Positions 3,000 through 36,222 of a stretch of DNA of 37,035 nt are shown piece by piece (the stretch's first letter is position 1; every line of letters begins with the position of its first letter). The notes beneath the pieces were generated by a model that saw nothing but the letters and a program-made list of their open reading frames with translations, did no database searches and was not told where the DNA came from. A program made the translations under genes and the position numbers. The DNA lies in the IMG/VR virus record IMGVR_UViG_3300009085_000053, positions 1 to 37,035 of that record; one strand, given 5' to 3'. This DNA is from a virus.

Positions 3000-3279
3000 A
3001 TCCATAAACGTTCAAAACGGCCTATTTTTAAAGCTTTTTATCAAGATGTATTAATCTCAAAACAAGCAAATAAACGCAATACAGACGATCCTAGAGGGCT
3101 TTTGGAGCGGTTTATTCTTATATTATGCCAGTAAATGCAAACTACTTAACAGGCGTATAGTAGTTTATGATAAATATAATAAAAAAAGATAAAATATATT
3201 ATAATATACTAGAAAAGGAAACCAAAGTATATTATATTATAAATATAAGCAATCAAGCAAAGATTGTAAAGGGGATCAA
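3000..3279 (+). promoter_or_regulatory. Intergenic control region with promoter A and upstream inverted repeat
   Basis: No gene is visible here. Promoter A has a -35 TAGAAA (3210-3215), a 17-nt spacer and a -10 TATATT (3233-3238), giving a start near 3245. An inverted repeat lies upstream, with arms AAACTACT (3139-3146) and AGTAGTTT (3159-3166). Within it, TACTTAACAGGCGT (3143-3156) recurs with one mismatch at 12602-12615, at nearly the same distance from another promoter. A small CAATC/GATTG stem in the 5' leader precedes the SD of the 3280 gene. Confidence 0.7.
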
Positions 3280-5559: not shown

Positions 5560-5565
5560 TATAAT

Positions 5566-5596
5566 ACTAGACACGTTCTAGTGTTTATGTTATATT
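5566..5596 (+). promoter_or_regulatory. Promoter B with overlapping palindrome
   Basis: The -35 TAGACA (5568-5573), 17-nt spacer and -10 TATATT (5591-5596) match promoters A and C. A perfect inverted repeat ACTAGA-cacgt-TCTAGT (5566-5582) covers the -35 element and could be an operator. It drives the recombination cassette starting at 5627. Confidence 0.7.
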
Positions 5597-5626: not shown

Positions 5627-6271
5627 ATGGGAATACCAGTACTGATTATCGGAGAAAGCGGACGCGGAAAAACTACGTCACTCCGATCAATGAACCCTGA
5701 AACGACGGGAATCATTGCCGCTATTGACAAACCTTTGCCGTTTAAGTCTAAACTTCCAAAGCCTTTTGTTTGTGATGACTATTCGGTCATCATGCAAGCA
5801 TTACACAAGGTAAAAGCAAAAAACATCATTCTTGATGATGTCCAGTATCTTATGGCAAACGAATTCATGAGACGCGCGAAGGAAAAAGGTTTTGAAAAAT
5901 TTCTGGATATTGGCCTTAATTTCTGGAACCTTATCAACGAAGTGAAAAAACTTCCCGACGATGTAATTGTCTATATGTTAGGACATACAGAAGAAGTTGA
6001 CGGAAGAACAAAATTCAAAACCATCGGGAAAATGCTTGACGAAAAAATCACATTAGAGGGAATGTTTACAATCGTATTGAAATCAATCATGGCAGATGGA
6101 AATTTTTACTTTTCAACAAAAAATTCTGGACAGGACACTGTGAAAAGCCCTATTGATATGTTTGCCGAGGCATACATTCCGAACGATATGGCAATCGTTG
6201 AAAAAGCAATTCGCGATTATTACAATATTCAGATTGTAAAGGATGGAAAAAATGACAAGTCAATCATCTAA
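5627..6271 (+). CDS. Sak4-like ATP-binding recombination protein
   Basis: A 214-residue RecA-fold ATPase. The Walker A motif is GESGRGKT (9-16) and the Walker B motif is NIILDDVQ (~66-73). A sensor-like MLGHTEE follows near residue 116. The family (AAA_24/Sak4) supplies single-strand annealing or loading in phage recombination, usually beside an exonuclease and an SSB. Both neighbours are present here. The SD AAAGGGAG lies 8-9 nt upstream of the ATG. It is the first gene after promoter B. Confidence 0.85.
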   Translation: MGIPVLIIGESGRGKTTSLRSMNPETTGIIAAIDKPLPFKSKLPKPFVCDDYSVIMQALHKVKAKNIILDDVQYLMANEFMRRAKEKGFEKFLDIGLNFWNLINEVKKLPDDVIVYMLGHTEEVDGRTKFKTIGKMLDEKITLEGMFTIVLKSIMADGNFYFSTKNSGQDTVKSPIDMFAEAYIPNDMAIVEKAIRDYYNIQIVKDGKNDKSII

Positions 6272-7607
6272 TAAAACATCTGTTTCCAGAATTGCCGCCT
6301 ATATCTGCAAAAAAAACTTTGATGGTGTAGACCAGAAGGTTTTGGAAGAAGCAGGAAGACGAGGGAATGAAATCCATGCAGATATCGAAAACGGAACATT
6401 CCGAACAGAAGAAGGAAAATTTGCCGAAAAATATCTTGCAGGGAGAACGCCGAAAAGAGAGTGTCAGATTGAACCAATCGAGAGAGGAGAATTGACCATC
6501 ACGGGGAGATTCGATGCATTTTTGCAGGATGATCGGGAACTGATTGATTATAAATCCGAGGCGATTGCAGATTTAAAATACTGGATAATCCAATTAAATC
6601 TGTACGCCTACGGATTGGGAGGAGCGGACAAATTGACGGTAATTCACGTTCCGAAATCTGGAAATTACAAAGTCATTTCCGTACCAAAGTTATCAGGTGA
6701 ACAGATTGAAAAAATCATTTATGCCTTTGCAAACAAAGAAGAACTGCCAGATAATTTTTGGGACTTCCTTGGATTAGTAACACAAGCGGAAGAAATCAAT
6801 CTTGACTTAGTGGTTTATTCTCACGATATTGGACAGATAGAAACGAACGTTGACGAAATCGTTAAGCAGATTGAAGAAAAGCTGAAATCCTACGTTCCAG
6901 AAAATTACAGTCCAGAAAACATCGGACTGGCCGCAAAGGATCGGGCGGCCTTAAACAAGTCGGAGAAGGCTTTGATTGAAAGAAGGAAAGCCCTTGAAGA
7001 AAAGCACAATGAACCGCTAAAAAATACTTTCGACAAAATAAAATTCGCGCAGGACTTAATCAAGAAAGCGTCATTGGCATTGGATAAGGTAGTCAAGGCA
7101 GTCGAAGAAAAAGAAAAAGCGGATATCAGGAAAGACCTAGAAGATTATTTCACACAAACCGGCTTTGCTCTTGTCAGCTTTGAAAAGATTTTTAAGCAAT
7201 CTTGGCTAAACAAGACAGCAAAGCGCAAGGAAACGAAAGCCGAGATTGATGCGATCATTAAAAAAATTAATCTAGATATCGAATTGCATGACAGATTAAA
7301 TGAGCCAGATGCAAAGGTCTTTTACCTACAGACACTTGACATTGACTCTGCTTTAAAAAAGGCCGATGAAATTAAAAAAGCGCGCGAGGTATTGGAGCAG
7401 GCACAAGCAAAAAAACCCGATCCAGTTGTTGAAAAAGTTGAGGTTGTTGTAGAAAAAATTCCAGTTCCCTTTGTCGTTGACAAAGAAGAAATAAAACAGG
7501 GAGAAGAAATTTTAACGAGGAGGGTTGAAATCAAGGGAACAGAAAAGCAATTAATAGATTTATCGATTTATTTGGATTCCGTCGGGATCGAATGGAATAA
7601 AATTTAA
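6252..7607 (+). CDS. PD-(D/E)XK exonuclease fused to a DUF1351-like domain
   Basis: About 451 residues. The N-terminal ~150 residues carry GRRGNEIHADIE, then GRFDAFLQDDRELIDYKSE (the D...DYK core) and WIIQLNLYAYG (QxxxY), the order seen in RecB/Cas4-like phage exonucleases. From ~200 on, the protein shows the DUF1351 pattern: long charged helices with KDRAALNKSEKALIERRKAL. A Pro/Val/Lys hinge near 385-405 precedes a short C-terminal domain. The start at 6252 follows AAGGA; ATG 6243 is an alternative. It overlaps the Sak4-like gene by 20 nt. The nuclease-DUF1351 fusion joins two cassette parts that are often separate genes. Confidence 0.8.
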   Translation: MTSQSSNKTSVSRIAAYICKKNFDGVDQKVLEEAGRRGNEIHADIENGTFRTEEGKFAEKYLAGRTPKRECQIEPIERGELTITGRFDAFLQDDRELIDYKSEAIADLKYWIIQLNLYAYGLGGADKLTVIHVPKSGNYKVISVPKLSGEQIEKIIYAFANKEELPDNFWDFLGLVTQAEEINLDLVVYSHDIGQIETNVDEIVKQIEEKLKSYVPENYSPENIGLAAKDRAALNKSEKALIERRKALEEKHNEPLKNTFDKIKFAQDLIKKASLALDKVVKAVEEKEKADIRKDLEDYFTQTGFALVSFEKIFKQSWLNKTAKRKETKAEIDAIIKKINLDIELHDRLNEPDAKVFYLQTLDIDSALKKADEIKKAREVLEQAQAKKPDPVVEKVEVVVEKIPVPFVVDKEEIKQGEEILTRRVEIKGTEKQLIDLSIYLDSVGIEWNKI

Positions 7608-7621
7608 AGGGAGAAAAAAAT

Positions 7622-8158
7622 ATGCAGAATGCGAATTTTTTCGGAGATGGATATATTCCGTCAGAGTATAAAACAGGAATGGTATTATTTGAAAATGGGG
7701 ATTATGATTTGATAATATCCCATTGCGAAGATAAACTTTCTCAAAATAATAATCCAATGCGAGTTATTACTTTTAAAGTGCGCGGGGTGGAAGGCGCTGA
7801 GATTAGTTATTACATGGTTCAGAATGAATATTTTAATTCCAATGCAACAAAATTCTTTGATACATTTGGAATTCAATACGGAGACTTTGCAATTATTCAT
7901 TGGGTCGGAAAGACTGGACGAAGCCATGTAGAGCAGGAAGAGTATACAAAGCAGGACGGGAATACGGGAAAGTCAATGAAAGTGAAATACTTTATTCCTA
8001 AAACAAGCCCACAACCCGCAGGAGCCGCGCCGAATGTAGTAAGACAGCAACCAGCACAAAGCCCTGCACAGTACGCACAACCAAAGCCAGCACAACAGCA
8101 ATATAGACAGGCACAACCAACACAAGCCCCGTTCGAAGATGATTTACCGGTATTTTAA
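7622..8158 (+). CDS. ssb: Single-stranded DNA-binding protein (DUF669/SSB-like)
   Basis: A 178-residue protein. Residues 1-~125 are a beta-rich OB-like domain (GDYDLIISHCEDKLSQNNNP, MRVITFKVRGVEGAEI). This is followed by a low-complexity Gln/Pro/Ala tail (~130-168) and an acidic tip ending FEDDLPVF. A flexible tail with a terminal DD-hydrophobic tip is the hallmark of SSB proteins, used to recruit partners. The SD AAAGGGAG is upstream. It sits directly after the Sak4/exonuclease pair, as expected for a recombination module. Confidence 0.85.
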   Translation: MQNANFFGDGYIPSEYKTGMVLFENGDYDLIISHCEDKLSQNNNPMRVITFKVRGVEGAEISYYMVQNEYFNSNATKFFDTFGIQYGDFAIIHWVGKTGRSHVEQEEYTKQDGNTGKSMKVKYFIPKTSPQPAGAAPNVVRQQPAQSPAQYAQPKPAQQQYRQAQPTQAPFEDDLPVF

Positions 8159-8170
8159 AGGATAAAGAAA

Positions 8171-8794
8171 ATGAGGTTTCAAACTATTTACGATCCAGAA
8201 TTATATGCAAGGTTTGAAATTAAGGCAGAGGACAAAATAGTCCTCTTGCCTTATCCTTTAAACGCAAAAGAAAGAATCGCTAAGTTTTTTTTATCAGTTA
8301 TCGAAAAAAACAAAGTGAATGCAGAAAAGAAAAAAGACCCTGTAACCCTTGACGTGCGGATCGAGGTATCAGACAAAAGGAGCCTTGACGCGAATGCCTT
8401 GATGTGGTCGATATATAATATTCAGGTGTATTACATGAATATTGAATTGAAGCAGATCAAGCAGATAACAAAAAATGATTTGTATGATAAAGACATGGAA
8501 GACTATGCGCCTAAACACTGGATAAAATGCCAACCAGAATCAAGGGAATTTTTCAGGCAAGTATTGACAGAAGAAAAAGGAAAGATCAAAAAGGAAATTG
8601 AAAAAGACGGCCATGTATATTTTCAAGTGTGGGAAACTTCATCATATTGGAATACAAAAAGAATGGCCGAATTCATTGATTTAAAATTGAATGAACTAGA
8701 GCAAGCAGGGATAACAAGGCTTGAGGACGGAAACCTTGACAAGGTATTTTTAGACTTTGAAAAATGGAGGCATGAAAATGCGGCGGATTGTTAA
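8171..8794 (+). CDS. NinB-like recombination protein
   Basis: A 207-residue protein. The segment SDKRSLDANALMWSIYNIQ (~67-85) matches the 'KRSLxxNAxxW' signature of NinB/Orf-type and related phage recombination proteins. A later SSYWNTKRMAEFIDLKLNEL followed by GITRL matches the C-terminal 'SxYxTxxMxxxI...L...GI' pattern. Such proteins bind single-stranded DNA and modulate recombination initiation. The position after SSB supports this. The end overlaps the next gene. Confidence 0.7.
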   Translation: MRFQTIYDPELYARFEIKAEDKIVLLPYPLNAKERIAKFFLSVIEKNKVNAEKKKDPVTLDVRIEVSDKRSLDANALMWSIYNIQVYYMNIELKQIKQITKNDLYDKDMEDYAPKHWIKCQPESREFFRQVLTEEKGKIKKEIEKDGHVYFQVWETSSYWNTKRMAEFIDLKLNELEQAGITRLEDGNLDKVFLDFEKWRHENAADC

Positions 8795-8954
8795 AAATAA
8801 TGTGGACGGATCAAAAGAAGTGCTTCGAGTGATTGTAGGACAGGCACAAGGGCTTGAAATCAGGCTTTTGACAGATTGTGGAGCTAAGAAAGGGGATAAA
8901 ATCAGATTGACACAGTATCCTGATGGGTCTGGAAAGTGGGAGAAGGAAGAATAA
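8778..8954 (+). CDS. Small hypothetical protein
   Basis: A 58-residue protein. The start at 8778 is chosen because GGAGG (8766-8770) is 7 nt upstream; ATG 8772 and TTG 8757 are also in frame. It is basic and beta-like (MRRIVKNNVDGSKEVLRVIV, GLEIRLLTDCGAKKGDKIRL), and might be a small OB or SH3-like fold. It closes the promoter B operon. Confidence 0.6.
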   Translation: MRRIVKNNVDGSKEVLRVIVGQAQGLEIRLLTDCGAKKGDKIRLTQYPDGSGKWEKEE

Positions 8955-8959
8955 AATAC

Positions 8960-8988
8960 TAGACTATATTAAAAAAAGGTAGTAAATT
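8960..8988 (+). promoter_or_regulatory. Promoter E upstream of the structured RNA
   Basis: TAGACT (8960-8965), a 17-nt spacer and TAAATT (8983-8988) follow the geometry of promoters A-C, with a weaker -10. The expected start falls at about 8995, exactly at the first base of stem 1 of the structured RNA. Confidence 0.5.
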
Positions 8989-8994
8989 AATTAT

Positions 8995-9111
8995 GTTATC
9001 AGTTGCCATGGAGTCACGCCCTGTGGGAACTGATAACAAAAAATGAAAGACTTTGTTTTTTTTATCCGGCGTGAACTCGAAAGAGTGGGTAAAAAAGCAA
9101 AGTCTTTTTTT
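8995..9111 (+). ncRNA. Structured leader RNA / small RNA with loop-bulge pseudoknot and terminator
   Basis: Stem 1 pairs GTTATCAGTT (8995-9004) with AACTGATAAC (9028-9037), extended by CCATG (9006-9010) with TGTGG (9022-9026, two G-U pairs). Stem 2 pairs AAAGACTTTG (9046-9055) with CAAAGTCTTT (9098-9107), continues through a T-rich/A-rich helix and ATCC/GGGT, then has a 7-nt bulge GGCGTGA (9068-9074), and closes with ACTC-GAAA-GAGT (9075-9086), a GNRA tetraloop. The stem 1 loop holds TCACGCC (9014-9020), the exact reverse complement of the bulge, so a 7-bp tertiary pseudoknot can form. Stem 2 leads into seven T (9105-9111), like a terminator. It may be an attenuating leader for the KilAC gene or a free small RNA. 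No known family was recognised. Confidence 0.75.
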
Positions 9112-9131
9112 ATTTTAACAGGAGGAAAAAT

Positions 9132-9554
9132 ATGGATGGTAAAGAAACAAGAGATTTACTTTCAAGGATATCTTCATTACTGGAAGAATCACAAAAAACG
9201 ATTGAGGAGTATGATAAGGAAATCAAAAGCCTTGTAAAAGAAAATCAAGAATTAGTAGAAAGTCAAAAAACATGGAATTTAATCGAGCAAAATGATAATT
9301 GGTTTGATTTTAAAGAAGTTGCAAAATTAATAAATATTAAAGGATTTGGAAGAAATAAAATTCTTGAGTTATTAAGAATGCATCAAATTTTTGATTCAAA
9401 TAATCAGCCTTATCAAAAAAATTGCACTAATGGATATTTCAAAATCACGCTTAAATATGTAGAATCATTAGACACATTCGTTTCAGTTCCTCTTTCTTCT
9501 AAAAAAGGAATTGACTTTATTGTAAAAATTATTGAGGAGGCAATACATGAATAA
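9132..9554 (+). CDS. KilAC-domain (antirepressor-like) protein
   Basis: A 140-residue protein with SD AGGAGG ~6 nt upstream. An N-terminal coiled coil (~8-50) leads to a C-terminal KilAC domain: WFDFKEVAKLINIKGFGRNK, ILELLRMHQIF, QPYQKNCTNGYFKI and SSKKGIDFIVKII. KilAC domains bind DNA and occur in phage antirepressors. The usual N-terminal Bro or Rha domain is missing, replaced by the coiled coil. The gene is directly downstream of the structured RNA, so its expression may depend on read-through of that element. Confidence 0.82.
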   Translation: MDGKETRDLLSRISSLLEESQKTIEEYDKEIKSLVKENQELVESQKTWNLIEQNDNWFDFKEVAKLINIKGFGRNKILELLRMHQIFDSNNQPYQKNCTNGYFKITLKYVESLDTFVSVPLSSKKGIDFIVKIIEEAIHE

Positions 9555-10308
9555 TTATCCCAAAGTTTCAACGGATGACGCCGCAAAAGAAGTTGAAAGA
9601 TTGCACAATGGAATTGAAGAAAAACTTAAAACAAGCGTTTCTGATGCAGTTAGAATCGGAGAAATTCTTACAACAATAAAAGAAAAGATAGGACATGGAC
9701 AATATGAAAAGTGGGTAAAGGAAAATGTTAATTTCAATACAGTAACGGCGTGGCGTTATATGAAATTATATTCATACGGTAAATCTTTAACAGCTAAAGA
9801 TTTACCGGAAGCCTATAAGCAGATGGAAACTTTCGAGGCGCAGGAAAAACAAAGTGAATATAAAAAAGCAATGATAAGAGTATGCGAATACAAAAAGACT
9901 GGGAAAAAGCCAGAAGGATGGAGAAAAAATACAGATGATAAACTTTATACAGAAGAAATCGAAAGAGAAAAAAGAATAAATGAAGCCGCACAAAAAGGTG
10001 AAAAATATAAAAAAGAATTTGAAGAAAAACAAGATAGAGAAAAAATATCAAGAGATGAAAGAAATTCAAGGCTTGACGGATTTATGGACACATTAAAAAA
10101 TGGGATAGAGAAAGAAAAAGAAAAAATAGAATTTGTAAAAAAAATAGGGTTATCCGGAAACAATGCATCTCATGGTTTTAATGAAATTCTGATAAATTAT
10201 TTACAAACATTACACAATGACAGCGAATGCATAGAGGCTTGTCATAACATAATCAAGATATGTAAAGGCTTTGTAAACGATTTACAGAAAAAATCAGTAG
10301 GGAAATAA
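9547..10308 (+). CDS. DUF3102-like protein
   Basis: A 253-residue, highly helical, charged protein. The start at 9547 has GAGGAGG ~6 nt upstream and overlaps the previous stop by 8 nt; an in-frame TTG at 9532 is not needed. Residues ~40-75 (IGEILTTIKEKIGHGQYEKW then NTVTAWRYMKLY) match the DUF3102 core, where a GxFxxW segment is followed by an HTH-like helix. This suggests DNA binding, and the neighbours point to replication or regulation. Confidence 0.72.
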   Translation: MNNYPKVSTDDAAKEVERLHNGIEEKLKTSVSDAVRIGEILTTIKEKIGHGQYEKWVKENVNFNTVTAWRYMKLYSYGKSLTAKDLPEAYKQMETFEAQEKQSEYKKAMIRVCEYKKTGKKPEGWRKNTDDKLYTEEIEREKRINEAAQKGEKYKKEFEEKQDREKISRDERNSRLDGFMDTLKNGIEKEKEKIEFVKKIGLSGNNASHGFNEILINYLQTLHNDSECIEACHNIIKICKGFVNDLQKKSVGK

Positions 10309-10319
10309 GAGAGGAAAAA

Positions 10320-11249
10320 ATGGCAACAAATAGATATATTAGTACTTCATTTTGGGATGACGAATGGATTCAAACATTAGACCCGTCAGAAAAATTATTA
10401 TATCTTTACTACATGACAAACCCTTTGACAAATATTGCAGGAATTTACAAAGTTACACAAAGAAGGGTTTCGTTTGATACCGGATTCACAAATGACACTA
10501 TTGGTCACATAATGGCAAAATTCGAGAAAGCAGGAAAGGTCTTTCGCTTTCAGGAATGGGTAATATTGCCGAATTGGACAAAATACCAAAAAGTAGGCGA
10601 AAAGGATAACAACAGAAAAGGAATAGATGCTATTTTAAAGGTAATTCCTGATAATATATATGAATACGCAATAAAAAGCGGTTATAAATATCAATTTTTG
10701 GAAGACCTTGGAAGGCCCTTACAAGGGGGTTCGACGACCTTGAACTATCTTAATCTTAATCTTAATCTTAATTCTAATCTTAATTTATGTAATGCCGATC
10801 AAAGATCGTCACAATCCGAAGAAGTAGAAAACTCAAAGATCGAAGGAATCTGCCGAGGGAGTGAAGTTCTTCTTGTTGACCACTCTCCGGAGATTGAAGA
10901 AACCACACCTGCCCGCCGGTTGCCCGTTCCAGAGGATAGTCTGCCGGTTGCCTTGAAACCCAAAAAAGAAAACTGGTACAAAAACGAGAATAATGCACGG
11001 GCTTTTAAATACATAAAGGAGTATATTACAGACTACGATCCTAACTACTACTTTGGTGATATTGAAAAAAGCACTATCAAGAATTTGGTCAATCGGTTAA
11101 GGGTGGAAGATAAAGAGGGCAACAAAGTTTTTGACCATGAGTATTTTGCGGAGAAGTGGGAGAATTACACGAAGCCTAGTTTTTGGATGGATCGAGGATG
11201 CAAGAACATAATGTCATTTTATAAAAATATTAATCGCATACCGGTATAG
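10320..11249 (+). CDS. Phage replication initiator / replisome-organizer-like protein
   Basis: A 309-residue protein. The N-terminal part (MATNRYISTSFWDDEWIQTL, then SEKLLYLYYMTNP and GIYKVTQRRVSFDTGF) is the winged-helix type start found in phage DnaD-like or replisome-organizer proteins. A Leu-Asn repeat (~142-156) forms the hinge and is encoded by a DNA hexamer repeat. A helical domain follows (~245-309, FAEKWENYTKPSFWMDRGCK). It lies directly before a DnaB-type helicase, so helicase loading at the origin is the likely role. Confidence 0.75.
   Translation: MATNRYISTSFWDDEWIQTLDPSEKLLYLYYMTNPLTNIAGIYKVTQRRVSFDTGFTNDTIGHIMAKFEKAGKVFRFQEWVILPNWTKYQKVGEKDNNRKGIDAILKVIPDNIYEYAIKSGYKYQFLEDLGRPLQGGSTTLNYLNLNLNLNSNLNLCNADQRSSQSEEVENSKIEGICRGSEVLLVDHSPEIEETTPARRLPVPEDSLPVALKPKKENWYKNENNARAFKYIKEYITDYDPNYYFGDIEKSTIKNLVNRLRVEDKEGNKVFDHEYFAEKWENYTKPSFWMDRGCKNIMSFYKNINRIPV
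10747..10782 (+). repeat. Hexanucleotide (ATCTTA) direct repeat in the replication gene
   Basis: Six consecutive hexamers: four ATCTTA, one ATTCTA, then ATCTTA. They are in frame and encode a Leu-Asn run. Iterons inside initiator genes are known phage origins (lambda O), so this could be an origin element or simply a linker-coding repeat. Confidence 0.85.
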
Positions 11250-11270
11250 ACAAAACAAAAGGGGAGACGG

Positions 11271-12569
11271 ATGAACGAATTTGAAAGGAATGTGATTGGG
11301 ACTATAATCGGAGCAGAAGGAAAAACGGATATTATCGACGACTCCGGTTTAGTTCCAGAAATGTTTTCAACGATTGACGGAAGAAATATTTATAACCTGA
11401 TTATAGAAATGCATCGAGAAAATATTATTCCGACATTAGCGCAGTTATTCGACAAAAACAAAGAATTGACTTTGAAGTATAATGATGTAACAAACGCTTC
11501 TAATTTTTTACTTGTAAAAGATTCTATCCGTAAAATTAAAGATGGTTATAAATACCGATGCATAAAAAAGATTGAAAGCGTAGTCAAGGATACTACACCG
11601 CACAATCTTGAAGATTCAAAGATTGAGATTATGTCAATCATTGACCAGTCGGATGACGTTAATTTTAGAAACGATATTGTGAATATTTCGACTAGAGATT
11701 CTTTTGTAAGCTATGTCGAAAAAGTCGAGGCAAGATACAAGAAGGGCGGGAAGGTTGACGGCGTTGATATTAAATTCCCGATTATGAAAGAATATTTCAA
11801 TGAGTGGTCAAAAGGAAATATATATTACATAGGGGGAAGGCCGTCAGATGGGAAATCAACACTTGCGATGAATGTGGCAATGCAATCACTTGAGCAGGGA
11901 TATAAAGTCGGATTTATTTCTTTGGAATCTGGACGGGAAGAGATTTTAAATCGCATCGTTTCACACGTCGGAGGCATCGAGGTTGGAAGGTTAAAAACCG
12001 GAATGCTAGGGATCAAAGATTTTGCGGCATTGCAGGATGTTGGCGAGGTTTTGACAAAAGACGGAAAGTTTATGATTTACGATAAACCGAGAGCAACTAT
12101 CACGGATATTATTTCGGCTATGAAATTAATGGTTAGACGGCATAAGGTTGATATAATTTTTATTGACTATATTCAAATTATTAGATGCCCAAAGTATCGA
12201 ACAAAGGTCGAAGAGGTTGGACACGTTTCACAAGTTTTAAAAGAAATGGCAAGACTTTTAAATATTCCAGTGATTGCACTGGCACAATTAAAAAGAGATA
12301 TTGACGTAGGACGTATGCCGAACCTTGGCGACTTCCAATGGTCAAGCCAGCTAGAGCAAGATATGGATGGCGGGATGCTTATTTGGAACACGAATCAAAA
12401 TCGATCAGAACCACATAATGATGACTATTATATTTTATACGCAAAGAACAGGGACGGGAAAACCGGCTGGGGTCGGATGCGATATAGCAAAGCTATGATG
12501 ACTTTTGAGGAGCATTATCAACAAGTTCCACCGCCTGAAAAGCGAAAAGGATATCATAAGAGCTTTTAA
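11271..12569 (+). CDS. Replicative DNA helicase, DnaB family
   Basis: A 432-residue protein. The N-terminal helical domain (~1-100) is of DnaB type (MNEFERNVIGTIIGAEGKTD, DGRNIYNLIIEMH). The RecA-like domain has Walker A GGRPSDGKST (~188-197), a VGFISLESG strand, Walker B VDIIFIDYIQ (~294-303), IPVIALAQLKRDID and a C-terminal AKNRDGKTG element. It unwinds the fork during phage replication. It is last in the operon after the initiator. Confidence 0.93.
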   Translation: MNEFERNVIGTIIGAEGKTDIIDDSGLVPEMFSTIDGRNIYNLIIEMHRENIIPTLAQLFDKNKELTLKYNDVTNASNFLLVKDSIRKIKDGYKYRCIKKIESVVKDTTPHNLEDSKIEIMSIIDQSDDVNFRNDIVNISTRDSFVSYVEKVEARYKKGGKVDGVDIKFPIMKEYFNEWSKGNIYYIGGRPSDGKSTLAMNVAMQSLEQGYKVGFISLESGREEILNRIVSHVGGIEVGRLKTGMLGIKDFAALQDVGEVLTKDGKFMIYDKPRATITDIISAMKLMVRRHKVDIIFIDYIQIIRCPKYRTKVEEVGHVSQVLKEMARLLNIPVIALAQLKRDIDVGRMPNLGDFQWSSQLEQDMDGGMLIWNTNQNRSEPHNDDYYILYAKNRDGKTGWGRMRYSKAMMTFEEHYQQVPPPEKRKGYHKSF

Positions 12570-12601: not shown

Positions 12602-12699
12602 TACTTAACAAGCGTTAAGTAAAATAAGGATAAAAAATGGTAAAAATATAATATAATATTAAAATAATTCTAGACAAGAAACAGATTTTATATTATATT
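12602..12699 (+). promoter_or_regulatory. Promoter C with upstream inverted repeat
   Basis: The -35 TAGACA (12671-12676), 17-nt spacer and -10 TATATT (12694-12699) are followed by a start near 12706. Upstream, ACTTAAC-aagc-GTTAAGT (12603-12620) is a perfect 7-bp inverted repeat. It contains TACTTAACAAGCGT (12602-12615), which differs by one base from the motif at 3143-3156 and lies 55 nt before the -35, against 53 nt at promoter A. Confidence 0.7.
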
Positions 12700-12913: not shown

Positions 12914-12927
12914 CCCGCAGACGCGGG
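12914..12927 (+). terminator. Hairpin with T run after the first promoter C gene (possible attenuator)
   Basis: CCCGC (12914-12918) pairs with GCGGG (12923-12927) around AGAC, then CTTTTT. It sits between the first and second genes, exactly as the hairpin at 3681-3694 does in the promoter A unit. Confidence 0.5.
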
Positions 12928-12947
12928 CTTTTTAAAAGGGGAGTTTT

Positions 12948-13148
12948 ATGAGTTATACAAATGAATTTGTTTTTGAGAATGTAAAAGAATCTTACAAAAA
13001 ATCTGAAAAGTTTTGTTCAAAAATGACGAAAGCCGAAAAGGTAAATTTCCAGAGAAAAGTTTGCTTTGCGTTTTTTTCTGAACTTTATGGAAGCGTGACA
13101 GTAAAGCAATTATGCGACGCGATGGAAAAATACGAGGCACAAGGATGA
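12948..13148 (+). CDS. Small hypothetical protein
   Basis: A 66-residue protein with SD AAGGGGAG upstream. It is helical and basic (VKESYKKSEKFCSKMTKAEK, SVTVKQLCDAMEKYEAQG). Its end overlaps the next start (ATGA). The function is not recognised. Confidence 0.7.
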   Translation: MSYTNEFVFENVKESYKKSEKFCSKMTKAEKVNFQRKVCFAFFSELYGSVTVKQLCDAMEKYEAQG

Positions 13149-17382: not shown

Positions 17383-17411
17383 TCGACAAAGAAAATAATT
17401 TGTAGTATACT
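17383..17411 (+). promoter_or_regulatory. Promoter D
   Basis: The -35 TCGACA (17383-17388), exactly 17 nt of spacer and -10 TATACT (17406-17411) lead to a start near 17418, only ~12 nt before ATG 17430. The SD AAAGGGAG lies inside this short leader. It drives the nuclease/methylase/ligase block. Confidence 0.65.
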
Positions 17412-19241: not shown

Positions 19242-20128
19242 AAAAAAATCTTTCAATCGCTATGATATTGATCGGATCATTTTTGGAAGTCTATTATTAT
19301 ACTTTCAGATTTACAGCGGACGGCATTCCGTGGTGGTTGGGAATAATCATAGGCGCAGGGCTTAATCTGCTTTTGATGCTTTTAGTGTATTGGAAGAAAA
19401 ACAGTCTTATGATTATTTTCCTGATTGCTTATTCTGTTATCAGTACCAGTGCAGGACAGACTTTTTCGATCATCGAGAAGCAAAAAAGCGAGATCGAGGC
19501 AAAGGTAAGTCCGGAGAAAAAGCGGATAGAAAAAGAGATTGAACTTTTACAAGAAGAGCGGGCGGGATTATCTGGCCAGATATCAGGCACAATTAAAACT
19601 CTTGAAGATCGTTACGAGTGGCAAAATACACTAGGGAAAGCGGAAAAGAGGATTGAAGAAATAGAAGGCCAGATTAAAACATATAATAAAAGTATTGAGG
19701 ACTTAACAAAAGGACAGACGATAACAGAAAATAATATTTACACTTTTTACGAAAGCCTTTTAAAAGGAATAATTGGAAAGGATTTTTTAAAGTTTATTTT
19801 TCATACAATTTTATCGGTATTCATTGCACTAATGGCTCCGACTGGGATAAAAATAATGATGTCAGGGCAGGAAGAAAAACCGGCAGAGCTGAAATCAATG
19901 GACTTTAAAACATGGGTTGAATTAGCATACTACGGGGAATCAAGGGGACGGCCGAAAGTACCGAATGAAAATATAATGCGGGAATATTTTAATATCAGGG
20001 GAATAACGTTCGATAGCGCAAAGAGTAAAAAATACTTTGACAAAGCGGTCGAGTTAGGATATATTGACAGTAACGGAAACCATATTGTAAAATATGAGGA
20101 AGTAAAAGGGAAAGGAAATGCAGTATAA
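19238..20128 (+). CDS. Multi-TM protein with coiled coil
   Basis: A 296-residue protein. Hydrophobic segments lie at ~5-22, ~32-52, ~56-72 and ~185-207 (FLKFIFHTILSVFIALMAPT). A long charged coiled coil spans ~82-165 (EKKRIEKEIELLQEERAGLS, KAEKRIEEIEGQIKTYNKSI). The C terminus (~215-290) is a soluble domain. The function is unknown; possibly a membrane effector in early infection. It overlaps the RNA ligase gene by 11 nt. Confidence 0.75.
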   Translation: MKKNLSIAMILIGSFLEVYYYTFRFTADGIPWWLGIIIGAGLNLLLMLLVYWKKNSLMIIFLIAYSVISTSAGQTFSIIEKQKSEIEAKVSPEKKRIEKEIELLQEERAGLSGQISGTIKTLEDRYEWQNTLGKAEKRIEEIEGQIKTYNKSIEDLTKGQTITENNIYTFYESLLKGIIGKDFLKFIFHTILSVFIALMAPTGIKIMMSGQEEKPAELKSMDFKTWVELAYYGESRGRPKVPNENIMREYFNIRGITFDSAKSKKYFDKAVELGYIDSNGNHIVKYEEVKGKGNAV

Positions 20129-21008
20129 AAAATATCAGCATATCGAAAAGCTAGAAAGCCAAAACGTAAGAGGAATTCTTGACGGACATTGTTTTGTATT
20201 CCCAAAAATTGACGGGACGAATGGGAGCTTATGGCTTGGTGGCGATGGGGAAATCAAGGCCGGAAGCAGAAACAGGGAACTAACAGAAGAGCAGGACAAC
20301 GGGAATTTCTATAAGGCTATGAAAGACGATCCGAAGTTTAAGGCATTTTTTAAGGATCATCCGGCAATCAGGCTATTTGGAGAATGGCTTATTCCGCACA
20401 GCTTGAAAACGTACAGGGAAGACGCTTGGAGAAAATTCTATGTTTTTGATGTAGAGCTGGCCGATGAGCTTATGAGCTTCGAGGACTATTCAGAGCTTCT
20501 TGACCAGTACGAAATAAATTATATCTATCCGATATGTGAGACGATATTACCCGAAAAAAGAAACCTTCTAAGATATCTGGAATCAACTACCTATTTGATT
20601 AAGGATGGAGAAGGCACAGGCGAGGGGATAGTTATTAAAAACTATGATTACCGGAACAAAGACGGGAAGCAGATTTGGGCGAAGATCGTGAAAAACGAAT
20701 TTAAAGAACAAAACAAAAAGGCCTTTGGAGTACAGACGGCAAAGACGCAGACAACGGCAGAGCGGGAAATAGTCGAGAAATACTGTACACAATCCCTTAT
20801 CGAGAAGGAATACGCTAAAATAAACCTTGAAAAAGGCGGATGGGAATCAAAGTATATACCGATGTTGCTAGGGAAGGTATACAACAGCATGATAACAGAC
20901 TCTATGTGGGAAATCCTCAAAGACTGGAAACATCCCACGATCGACTTTAAAGAGCTTCAAAGGTTTATTAATATCAAGATCAAAGAAATCAAAAGCGAGG
21001 TGTTTTGA
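20118..21008 (+). CDS. RNA ligase (nucleotidyltransferase)
   Basis: A 296-residue protein. Motif I is FPKIDGTNG with Lys30 as the AMP acceptor. SRNRE (~51-55), FGEWLIP, FYVFDV (~108-113, motif III/IIIa), GEGIVIKNYDY (motif IV) and WAKIVKNEFKE (motif V) follow in order. This fits the Rnl2-like family. It may repair tRNA or other RNA cut by host nucleases. No polynucleotide kinase gene is seen in the window. SD AAAGGAAA upstream. Confidence 0.85.
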   Translation: MQYKKYQHIEKLESQNVRGILDGHCFVFPKIDGTNGSLWLGGDGEIKAGSRNRELTEEQDNGNFYKAMKDDPKFKAFFKDHPAIRLFGEWLIPHSLKTYREDAWRKFYVFDVELADELMSFEDYSELLDQYEINYIYPICETILPEKRNLLRYLESTTYLIKDGEGTGEGIVIKNYDYRNKDGKQIWAKIVKNEFKEQNKKAFGVQTAKTQTTAEREIVEKYCTQSLIEKEYAKINLEKGGWESKYIPMLLGKVYNSMITDSMWEILKDWKHPTIDFKELQRFINIKIKEIKSEVF

Positions 21009-24562: not shown

Positions 24563-26026
24563 ATGGGATGGTTTAACGATTTATTAAATAGACACAAAGA
24601 AACAACTAATTCGGATATGACAAAACAGGATGTAAGATTAAGTAGGCGCAGGGATTACACTGGCGGAAAGGTTGCGAACACCGAAAGAATGAACGGCCTT
24701 TACTCAGGAAGCGACGCCAGAATGCAGTTTTCTTCTCCGTATTCAAATACGCCAATCGCCGTTCCTACTGCATTCGTAGGAATCCCGACGCCTATTACAG
24801 ACGACCCTGCAACGGTCGAAGCTTGCAAAACTATAGTTGATAAAATGCGGGACGAGTTTTCGATCATCGAGAGGTCAAAACTCCTTTATGGAACGCATTG
24901 GAGATTTCCGAAATACGATAGGCAAAAACAAACATTAGTTTGGGAAACTATACCAGATGACACGGTATGTTCGATTGAATTAGATATAAATACAGGCGAG
25001 ATTTTAGCCGTCAACACTTCCGAAGATATAAAGATTTTTGTAAATCCAACACAAACGGCGCAAGTCAAGAGAGAGCGCAGATTTACACGGGAAAGAATTG
25101 ATATTAAATATCAAGGGAAAGATGATGTCAATGCAGGGTTGCTTGACGTTTCGATTTCCAACCCGTTCAAGAATTTGCCGATACCATTCGGACATGACTG
25201 CCTAGAAAGTGAATGGCGCGGGATATCAGTATTTGGTCGGGTGTTTAGATTGCTAAAATCAACGCACGATATCAAAGAATCAAGGGAACAGATTCTCTCA
25301 CAGTTTAGGCCGAAGATGATCCAGACAGTTGCACAAGGCAAGGCCAAAGAATGGCTTGATAATAACGGATTTACGACAGATTGTTTGCCGGACCCGTTTC
25401 AGGATGACTTTTTTATCAATCAAGGATCGGAAACGACAGAGTATTGCAATCTACCAAATGGACTTACGGACCAGTACACGGCGGCAATCAAGGACAACAG
25501 ATCGGAGATTATAATCGGGTCAGGTATTCCAGAATTATTCTGGCCGCCGTTAGCAACAGGGAATCATGCGTCAACGGATGAACAAAGAAACCTTGCAATT
25601 CAGTATATTAAGGAATTAAGAAGAGAGAACGAACGGAGCTATGAGCTTTTGTTTAATGATTCCTTGAAAATCCTTGGCTATCTTGATTTCAAAACATATA
25701 AGCCGGTCAAGATTGCTTGGAATAATTTATCAATGCTTTCAATGGAAGCACGCGTCAGAATCCTTGACACTTTTACAACGGCGGCGACAAAGATTATCGG
25801 GAGCGCGATCCTTGGCAGAGAAGAGCTTCTGTACTTTGTTAAAGAATTTTTTCCGGATATCCCGATCAAGGATTTGGCGCAGTTTAAAAAGGGGCAATAC
25901 GATATGGCAAAACTCGCAAGCCTTTTGAAAACAGATTTTATGTCTGGATTAGATAGCAACGAATTCACACCAGCAGAGGATCAGGGAGACGATCAAGAAG
26001 ATAAAGATTTAGAAGACGAGGTTTAA
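24563..26026 (+). CDS. Portal protein
   Basis: A 487-residue protein (MGWFNDLLNRHKETTNSDMT...) placed between the large terminase and the minor head protein. ESREQILSQFRPKMIQTVAQ and IIIGSGIPELFWPPLATG, with a long helical C-terminal part and an acidic end (DDQEDKDLEDEV), fit an SPP1/HK97-like portal. No unique motif exists for this class, so order and length weigh most. SD AAGGCGG upstream. Confidence 0.82.
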   Translation: MGWFNDLLNRHKETTNSDMTKQDVRLSRRRDYTGGKVANTERMNGLYSGSDARMQFSSPYSNTPIAVPTAFVGIPTPITDDPATVEACKTIVDKMRDEFSIIERSKLLYGTHWRFPKYDRQKQTLVWETIPDDTVCSIELDINTGEILAVNTSEDIKIFVNPTQTAQVKRERRFTRERIDIKYQGKDDVNAGLLDVSISNPFKNLPIPFGHDCLESEWRGISVFGRVFRLLKSTHDIKESREQILSQFRPKMIQTVAQGKAKEWLDNNGFTTDCLPDPFQDDFFINQGSETTEYCNLPNGLTDQYTAAIKDNRSEIIIGSGIPELFWPPLATGNHASTDEQRNLAIQYIKELRRENERSYELLFNDSLKILGYLDFKTYKPVKIAWNNLSMLSMEARVRILDTFTTAATKIIGSAILGREELLYFVKEFFPDIPIKDLAQFKKGQYDMAKLASLLKTDFMSGLDSNEFTPAEDQGDDQEDKDLEDEV

Positions 26027-34532: not shown

Positions 34533-35471
34533 ATGGCTATGCAGAATTTGAAAACTAGATTTGCAACAGAAGGATTTCGGGCAATGCGATTGAACCCCGA
34601 CGGAACTATACCGGCAGCATCGCGCTTTCTTGGATTTACTGGAACAGTTGACCTATCTGCAATTCTTGATGTTGGAGACGCGGCTGATTTGACAGTAAAA
34701 ATCGACAGCACTGCAGAAGATACCAACACGGTAGACTTCACGGACGCAGTAGACAAAGCGGCGGTAACAGTTGCCGAGGCCGTGGCCGCTTTGACGACTG
34801 CCGCATTTACCGGAATAACTTGGAGCCTTGACACGGCAACGGGAAGACTAAAAGGTGTTTCAGCGACGGGAACTTATGTGCAGGTTTACGGAGAACTTGC
34901 GGCCGCTCTTGATTTCGGTCAGGGGTTGGATCATGGCGGAGAAGGTTTGGTATTTGTAAAATCTTTTGACGACCTTACAAAGTCAATCGGATTACCTAAA
35001 AATATCAAGGCCAAAGAAGAAATTGACGTTGAAGGCGCACAGGGGACAGTTACGAGAATGGTCATTTCCGCAAAACTGCAGGGGATGTCTCCTGTTATCG
35101 CAACCAAAAATAAGTCTTACGATATGCTTGAAATGATTCAGGGCGGAACATACAACAGAACAAACAACACTTACGACCCACCACTGTCAAGCAGAACGCA
35201 GTCACCAAGATTTTTTGTTGAAGTTTATTCCCCGCTTTACAGTCAGGGCGTAAGCAAGATGGAAGATTTAACCCATTACGAAAAATTGCTTATTCGTTCT
35301 TGCATTGGAATGGAAGGCGATGTACCTATCGAAGCGAAGGCATGGGCAAACTATTCTTTCAATCTTGAAGCCACAGAGTATGTAAATGAATCTTCTGTAA
35401 CGCTTCCGGCTTGGCAGGAAAGTCAGTTAACACTTGCGAACTTCGAGGCGTTGAACGTTGAAACTGTTTAA
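34533..35471 (+). CDS. Major tail (tube) protein
   Basis: A 312-residue protein with SD AGGAGG upstream. Its Thr/Ala/Asp-rich first third (ADLTVKIDSTAEDTNTVDFT) is an insertion-like or Ig-like surface part. The core (KEEIDVEGAQGTVTRMVISA, EATEYVNESSVTLPAWQESQ) fits tail-tube proteins. Order before the chaperone and tape measure is diagnostic. Confidence 0.75.
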   Translation: MAMQNLKTRFATEGFRAMRLNPDGTIPAASRFLGFTGTVDLSAILDVGDAADLTVKIDSTAEDTNTVDFTDAVDKAAVTVAEAVAALTTAAFTGITWSLDTATGRLKGVSATGTYVQVYGELAAALDFGQGLDHGGEGLVFVKSFDDLTKSIGLPKNIKAKEEIDVEGAQGTVTRMVISAKLQGMSPVIATKNKSYDMLEMIQGGTYNRTNNTYDPPLSSRTQSPRFFVEVYSPLYSQGVSKMEDLTHYEKLLIRSCIGMEGDVPIEAKAWANYSFNLEATEYVNESSVTLPAWQESQLTLANFEALNVETV

Positions 35472-36222
35472 GAGGACAATCGAAAAAGCCGTCAATCAAG
35501 AAATTGAGAGACGGCTTTCAGAAATTCCGAATAACCGCCCGCCTTCCGGATATAATCCGATTGAACATATTCGGGGCGGGCTTTTTCATTGGGTGCTAGT
35601 GCCATTTAATAATCAGGGAGTTTGGTGTCAATTAAGATGCCTTAACGCAACGGAACTTGAAGCTTGCGGAAGTGTTACATTGATTTCACTTTCAAAAGAT
35701 ACTACAAGACCGGCGATGGAAAAATTAATTGCGATGCGGAATATTCAAGAAGAGCTTTGTAAACAGGCAATGAATAATCCGACTTTTGATGAAGTAGTAA
35801 AATTAGTTGAAAAAGATGACAATGTATATTCAAGAACGAAAAAACAATTGGATGAAATAGAAAAAATTGATATTAGTGGATTGACAACTGTACAAAAAAA
35901 AGAAATTGAAGAAAGAATTTTAAGATTAAGATATAAGACAGCATATATTTTACCGGAAGATGCCTTCGGCTTTATAACATCATGGGCATTAGGCGGCGAT
36001 GTTTCAGATATTAAAAAAATCACTAGGGATCAGCTATTGACAGCGGCAATATTAGCAGAGCGGAATAAAAATAGTCCGTCGGATAATATAAAAGGGTTTT
36101 TTACAGATAGAGATAAAGCAGACATTGATAAAACATCATGGACTGTTTATAGCGAATACACAGAAATGCAGAGAGTTGAAAAGTCGTCAAAGGGAATTTC
36201 TTGGGTCGGCGGAGGAAAGTAA
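35458..36222 (+). CDS. Putative tail assembly chaperone
   Basis: A 254-residue protein starting at TTG 35458, inside the end of the tail gene, with GAGG ~9 nt upstream. Helical (RRLSEIPNNRPPSGYNPIEH, IEERILRLRYKTAYILPEDA). Its slot between tube and tape measure is that of the chaperone. No slippery G/GT pair was identified. Confidence 0.6.
   Translation: MKLFKRTIEKAVNQEIERRLSEIPNNRPPSGYNPIEHIRGGLFHWVLVPFNNQGVWCQLRCLNATELEACGSVTLISLSKDTTRPAMEKLIAMRNIQEELCKQAMNNPTFDEVVKLVEKDDNVYSRTKKQLDEIEKIDISGLTTVQKKEIEERILRLRYKTAYILPEDAFGFITSWALGGDVSDIKKITRDQLLTAAILAERNKNSPSDNIKGFFTDRDKADIDKTSWTVYSEYTEMQRVEKSSKGISWVGGGK

Follow-up and report, generated by a model that had tools for sequence, protein, structure and literature searches.

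A predicted pseudoknotted RNA with a terminator-like hairpin ahead of the replication operon of an uncultivated phage

Between the early genes of an uncultivated phage (those for a Sak4 annealing protein and for DUF1351, SSB-like and NinB-like proteins) and its KilAC-DUF3102-DnaD-DnaB genes lies a 117-nt element, 8995-9111 on the + strand, in which inspection of the sequence found two long hairpins, a GAAA tetraloop and a complementarity between loop 1 and a bulge in hairpin 2. The question it raises is whether such an arrangement is a real RNA and, if so, what it does in this position. The window, that is the whole stretch of DNA analysed, comprises 37,035 nt of an IMG/VR virus record (IMGVR_UViG_3300009085_000053, positions 1 to 37,035), and the contig is incomplete. 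Strongly structured phage RNAs without a database relative still await description, and this element is small and self-contained, which makes it testable with few constructs. If the reading favoured below is true it would represent a compact RNA-only metering of phage replication genes and would add a new role for pseudoknots within terminators.

Hairpin 1 (8995-9037, +) was predicted by folding to comprise P1 of 10 bp (8995-9004/9028-9037) and P1b of 6 bp (9006-9011/9021-9026) with one G.G mismatch; it folds by itself at -21.5 kcal/mol and begins at the predicted transcription start. Its 9-nt loop, AGUCACGCC (9012-9020), contains UCACGCC (9014-9020, +), the 5' strand of the candidate pseudoknot. 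An A-rich linker that is single-stranded in the fold, AAAAAAUG (9038-9045, +), connects it to hairpin 2 (9046-9107, +; inverted repeat I1), a terminator-like structure of -23.7 kcal/mol with a 21-bp stem (9046-9067/9087-9107), one bulged U, a 7-nt bulge and the cap ACUC-GAAA-GAGU. The bulge, GGCGUGA (9068-9074, +), is evident in the sequence, emerged from a pseudoknot search and would be the 3' strand. At the foot of hairpin 2 stands a U tract (9105-9111, +) of seven U, then A and UUUU, which is the presumed termination site. The two long stems, the GAAA tetraloop and the U tract after stem 2 reported in the initial annotation were all recovered, and its statement that TCACGCC in loop 1 is the exact reverse complement of the GGCGTGA bulge can be read directly from the sequence. 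Two reading frames of 12 codons (9008-9046) and 64 codons (9043-9237) overlap as ATGA in the RNA; leader-peptide attenuation was set aside, both frames being buried in stems and devoid of a ribosome-binding site.

The minimum free energy of 8995-9111 (+) was -48.6 kcal/mol (z -7.2), with none of 200 shuffles equally stable, as against -33.7 kcal/mol (z -4.6) for the reverse complement. The + strand RNA is the more stable because four G-U pairs form only in it, and this difference argues for a + strand RNA over a DNA-level palindrome, which was set aside on the same ground. When a 117-nt frame was slid along both strands of the window and GC content was regressed out, the element also ranked first in excess stability. 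The second most over-stable stretch, 35465-35610, has two hairpins, the second then CTTTTT, inside an overlapping reading frame (35458-36222).

Statistics on the pseudoknot itself point the same way. When all 7-bp pseudoknots outside the secondary structure were searched without bias, UCACGCC/GGCGUGA was the best helix, with a net energy of -9.4 kcal/mol that includes opening costs but no 3D penalties, and none of 200 shuffles came near this value (the best gave -5.1). Steric strain may add a cost beyond the computed energy, since the 7-bp helix spans a bulge that faces no nucleotide. Given the hairpins, a perfect 7-bp Watson-Crick match between loop and bulge has a probability of ~2.6e-4; shuffling the actual letters of loop and bulge gives 1.6e-3. 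A hairpin with a loop complementary to the bulge of a U-tract hairpin occurred once in the window and in 0/746 dinucleotide-shuffled windows, the thresholds of this descriptor having been picked after the element was seen and placed below its own values. The low chance that the initial annotation had assigned to the nested complementarities is borne out by these figures, and the statistics of this single sequence give good support to a real pseudoknotted + strand RNA that starts at a promoter.

The start of this RNA would depend on promoter E (8955-8988, +), which is of the ATACTAGAC type and has sister copies at three other places in the phage, 3210, 5568 and 12671. The four promoters with this unusual extended -35 span 3202-3238, 5560-5596, 8952-8988 and 12663-12699, share a 17-nt spacer and in three cases have TATATT; the intergenic regions before 3280, 5627, 9132 and 12740 have ATACTAGACA-N17-TATATT or a close variant in common. 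Promoter E consists of AATACTAGACT, an extended -35 (TAGACT at 8960-8965), the 17-nt spacer and a -10-like TAAATT (8983-8988), and it ends ~7 nt before stem 1. Scored with a matrix from the other three sites (leave-one-out) it ranked 6th among 73,970 positions; the higher ranks went to the three training sites, a shifted copy and a site at 17383. Since ~7 nt is the usual spacing after a -10 element, transcription would start near 8995. The proposal that the start falls on the first base of stem 1 is therefore plausible; the -35 element, AATACTAGAC, fits the three sister promoters perfectly and the spacing fits, but the -10 is degenerate. From the -10 to the start codon there are 31-41 nt at the three sister promoters compared to 143 nt at promoter E, because the RNA fills the extra length. 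A scan of viral contigs with the promoter pattern returned 19 matches, all of them in unrelated phages, and no RNA homologue; the extended -35 ATACTAGACA motif is likewise present in unrelated viral contigs.

Downstream, the U tract is separated by 20 nt from the start codon of an ANT/KilAC-domain gene (9132-9554, +; PF03374, 31.4 bits with a cut-off of 25.3; phrog_130), the first gene after the RNA, and the ribosome-binding site of this gene starts 8 nt past the U tract. In a fold of the longer leader its Shine-Dalgarno sequence AGGAGG and spacer (9120-9131, +) are outside hairpin 2. The rest of the operon (9547-12569, +) follows with gaps of at most 21 nt and consists of the DUF3102 gene and genes for a DnaD-like loader and a DnaB-like helicase. 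Between the U tract and KilAC 20 nt is too short to hold a promoter. With promoter E upstream of the terminator-like hairpin and none that fits downstream, the operon would therefore be reached from promoter E only via read-through, and it is chiefly this need that favours a leader terminator over a plain terminator at the end of an operon. The latter explanation treats the loop-bulge match as incidental and the element as no more than an intrinsic terminator, stabilised by a hairpin on its 5' side, at which the upstream early operon (5627-8954) stops. It has in its favour that a hairpin and U tract are present, that such hairpins are common and that a single sequence is involved, but promoter E precedes the terminator instead of following it and a 7-bp match is improbable by chance, with no counterpart in the shuffled windows, so that this explanation is rather unlikely. 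A second, small terminator-like hairpin (CCCGCAGACGCGGG CTTTTT, 12914-12935) immediately precedes the ribosome-binding site of the gene at 12948, and the order terminator then ribosome-binding site therefore occurs twice in the phage. Within the DnaD-like gene there are about six copies of the hexamer ATCTTA (10747-10784), a possible replication origin.

The element is best read as the 5' leader of the replication operon and as a non-coding RNA gene alike, and the mechanism put forward, tentatively, as a real possibility is a pseudoknot-locked leader terminator that releases a 117-nt RNA and leaks into the replication operon. Transcription would begin at promoter E near 8995 and hairpin 1 would fold first, after which its loop UCACGCC would capture GGCGUGA as the 5' arm of hairpin 2 emerges. 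The loop-bulge pairing appears compatible with hairpin 2 and would lock the element into a compact pseudoknot; hairpin 2 would halt most polymerases at the U tract (9105-9111), freeing a stable RNA of ~117 nt, and a minority of polymerases would read through to give the KilAC-DUF3102-DnaD-DnaB mRNA. Replication-gene expression would in this way be metered by the element, and the leak could change in either direction if another partner competed for loop or bulge. The stems, the promoter motif, the U tract and the gene order are present in the DNA and the preference for the pseudoknot is thermodynamic; the start site, termination, leak, released RNA and any regulation are what we infer from them.

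Hairpin 2 with its seven U has the form of an intrinsic terminator, a stable hairpin followed directly by a U tract, and a simple terminator scanner missed it because the stem is long and bulged. Termination may be inefficient because the base of hairpin 2 is A/U-rich. A search for an antiterminator alternative gave nothing convincing, with only a weak early hairpin (~-2.8 kcal/mol) in competition. Among the functions listed in the initial annotation, an attenuator or a terminated small RNA fits, the promoter standing before the terminator and the ribosome-binding site just beyond the U tract, whereas a sensor found no Rfam family and a put-like element has only position and two hairpins in common with this RNA.

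It is possible, if doubtful, that the unit exists for the 117-nt RNA itself, which would act in trans, in its folded form, on a protein or RNA of the host or the phage, the read-through into KilAC being incidental. The full anatomy of a small-RNA gene (promoter, hairpin from +1, terminator) and the compact fold with its GAAA tetraloop are consistent with this; against it, the operon behind the element lacks another nearby promoter, so that the position in cis matters, and no target was found within the phage. With the pseudoknot formed nearly all bases are paired and few are free for other RNAs, and a duplex scan of RNA segments against phage ribosome-binding sites yielded no better match than random phage windows. 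The RNA therefore seems to be a folded object rather than an antisense seed, and an antisense small RNA to phage genes was set aside, no gene start being a better target than random. The leaky leader terminator could also represent a type of phage regulatory RNA not described before: the loop of an upstream hairpin would dock into the bulge of an intrinsic terminator hairpin, and the resulting pseudoknot, which a phage or host factor could open, would set termination before the replication operon. This suggestion is made with considerable reserve.

Phage leader terminators coupled with a small RNA are known; here such an arrangement would go with a convincing structure, no relatives and a putative function. 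In the IsrK-orf45-anrP leader of the Salmonella prophage Gifsy-1 a phage promoter, a small RNA and a leaky Rho-independent terminator come before an anti-repressor gene, and IsrK, of 77 nt, opens its own mRNA for translation (PMC4825925). The succession of phage promoter, short structured RNA, terminator and anti-repressor gene is alike, the match here being in sequence anatomy alone, but there is no sequence relation, the ribosome-binding site looks accessible and no IsrK-like target pairing was seen. Processing of an untranslated leader that controls replication genes yields the P4 CI RNA, which acts as an antisense RNA (PMC4825925). Again a structured RNA occupies the leader of a replication operon and complementary segments, here UCACGCC/GGCGUGA, lie within one leader, but in this phage the stop has the look of an intrinsic one and nothing observed points to action in trans. 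The P1/P7 C4 antisense RNA (Rfam RF01695) is a structured RNA upstream of an antirepressor gene (PMC12197685; PMC2864571) and resembles the present RNA in preceding a gene with an antirepressor domain; it differs in that the RNA here has no complement to AGGAGG, the duplex scan was not above control and RF01695 was not matched. That a released RNA of the P4 CI or C4 type pairs in trans via UCACGCC with the same leader, causing termination or blocking the antirepressor gene, is very improbable: the location before an antirepressor-domain gene and replication genes would suit it, as would a loop complementary to another part of the leader, like that of P4 CI RNA to seqA and seqC (PMC4825925), but the KilAC ribosome-binding site finds no complementarity and no integrase or repressor was recognised in the window, which comes from an incomplete contig.

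The HMP-PP (thiS) riboswitch has a terminator-embedded aptamer in which the pseudoknot excludes the terminator (PMC6478431). Pseudoknot potential is built into an intrinsic terminator hairpin in this phage as well, but pseudoknot and terminator can coexist, no metabolic gene is present and Rfam gave no match. The put RNA of HK022 (putL) consists of two stem-loops, ~70 nt in all, immediately downstream of an early promoter (PMC9378689) and acts as a cis antiterminator, the nascent RNA binding RNA polymerase so that later terminators are passed. Two hairpins from the predicted start of an early operon transcript are what the present RNA shares with it, but at 117 nt it is longer, ends in a U tract of its own, has another fold with a pseudoknot in place of the put triplex and shows no homology or Rfam relation, so that put-like action is highly unlikely. 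The put RNA of HK022 is not known to have a U tract, and it renders RNA polymerase resistant to terminators by way of the beta' zinc-binding domain. A type III toxin-antitoxin RNA (ToxI), characterised by pseudoknotted repeats in tandem and a ToxN gene, was also rejected, there being no tandem repeats and the downstream gene being ANT/KilAC and not ToxN. None of IsrK, P4 CI, C4, HMP-PP and put is a family match.

Relatives were sought by several routes. A covariance search of the window with Rfam 15 gave no match at gathering score, the best sub-threshold score being 23.7 bits with a cut-off of 83; the comparison with known families that had been suggested, put RNAs and ribozymes included, matched none, the sensor and ribozyme readings found no support and a ribozyme was set aside. 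DNA similarity in phages and plasmids revealed no RNA homologue; a match to a Listeria contig covered 31 nt only and was without the structure. Protein relatives of KilAC, DnaB, Sak4, DUF3102 and the product of 24563-26026 in viral contigs, and of Sak4 in genomes, led to no RNA homologue either, and the DUF3102 protein had no matching record in the phage collection. A pattern of the pseudoknot plus GAAA gave 37 matches in viral contigs, about the chance expectation, and all but one lacked the two hairpins, the exception being a GC-rich coding-type stretch; a pattern for stem 1 gave 49, none with a matching hairpin 2. The search with a single-sequence covariance model covered 78 loci, 46 virus records and 10 host genomes, together with three phylum-level samples (299, 344 and 296 genomes); it found no homologue in the 46 related virus records or the ~950 bacterial genomes, of phyla that may not be the host's and in collections from which near-identical records may be absent. 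Its sole match, L286 at 31.8 bits, was a plain hairpin pair without loop motif or bulge.

The phage relatives are distant, with up to ~60 percent identity for Sak4 and less for other proteins. KilAC-DUF3102 is a conserved gene pair, which recurs in the distant phages L084 (3351-4500), L234 (1016-2182) and L235 (3474-4747). No such RNA accompanies the pair in these three, and no comparable leader was seen at the KilAC-domain genes of seven related records. The association of the RNA with KilAC is thus not conserved and the KilAC gene is probably incidental, because relatives keep the pair without the RNA. This 37-kb phage contig also carries an RNA ligase gene (20118-21008), 44% identical to a gene of Cellulophaga phage phi19:3, a possible sign of RNA repair that counters host nucleases.
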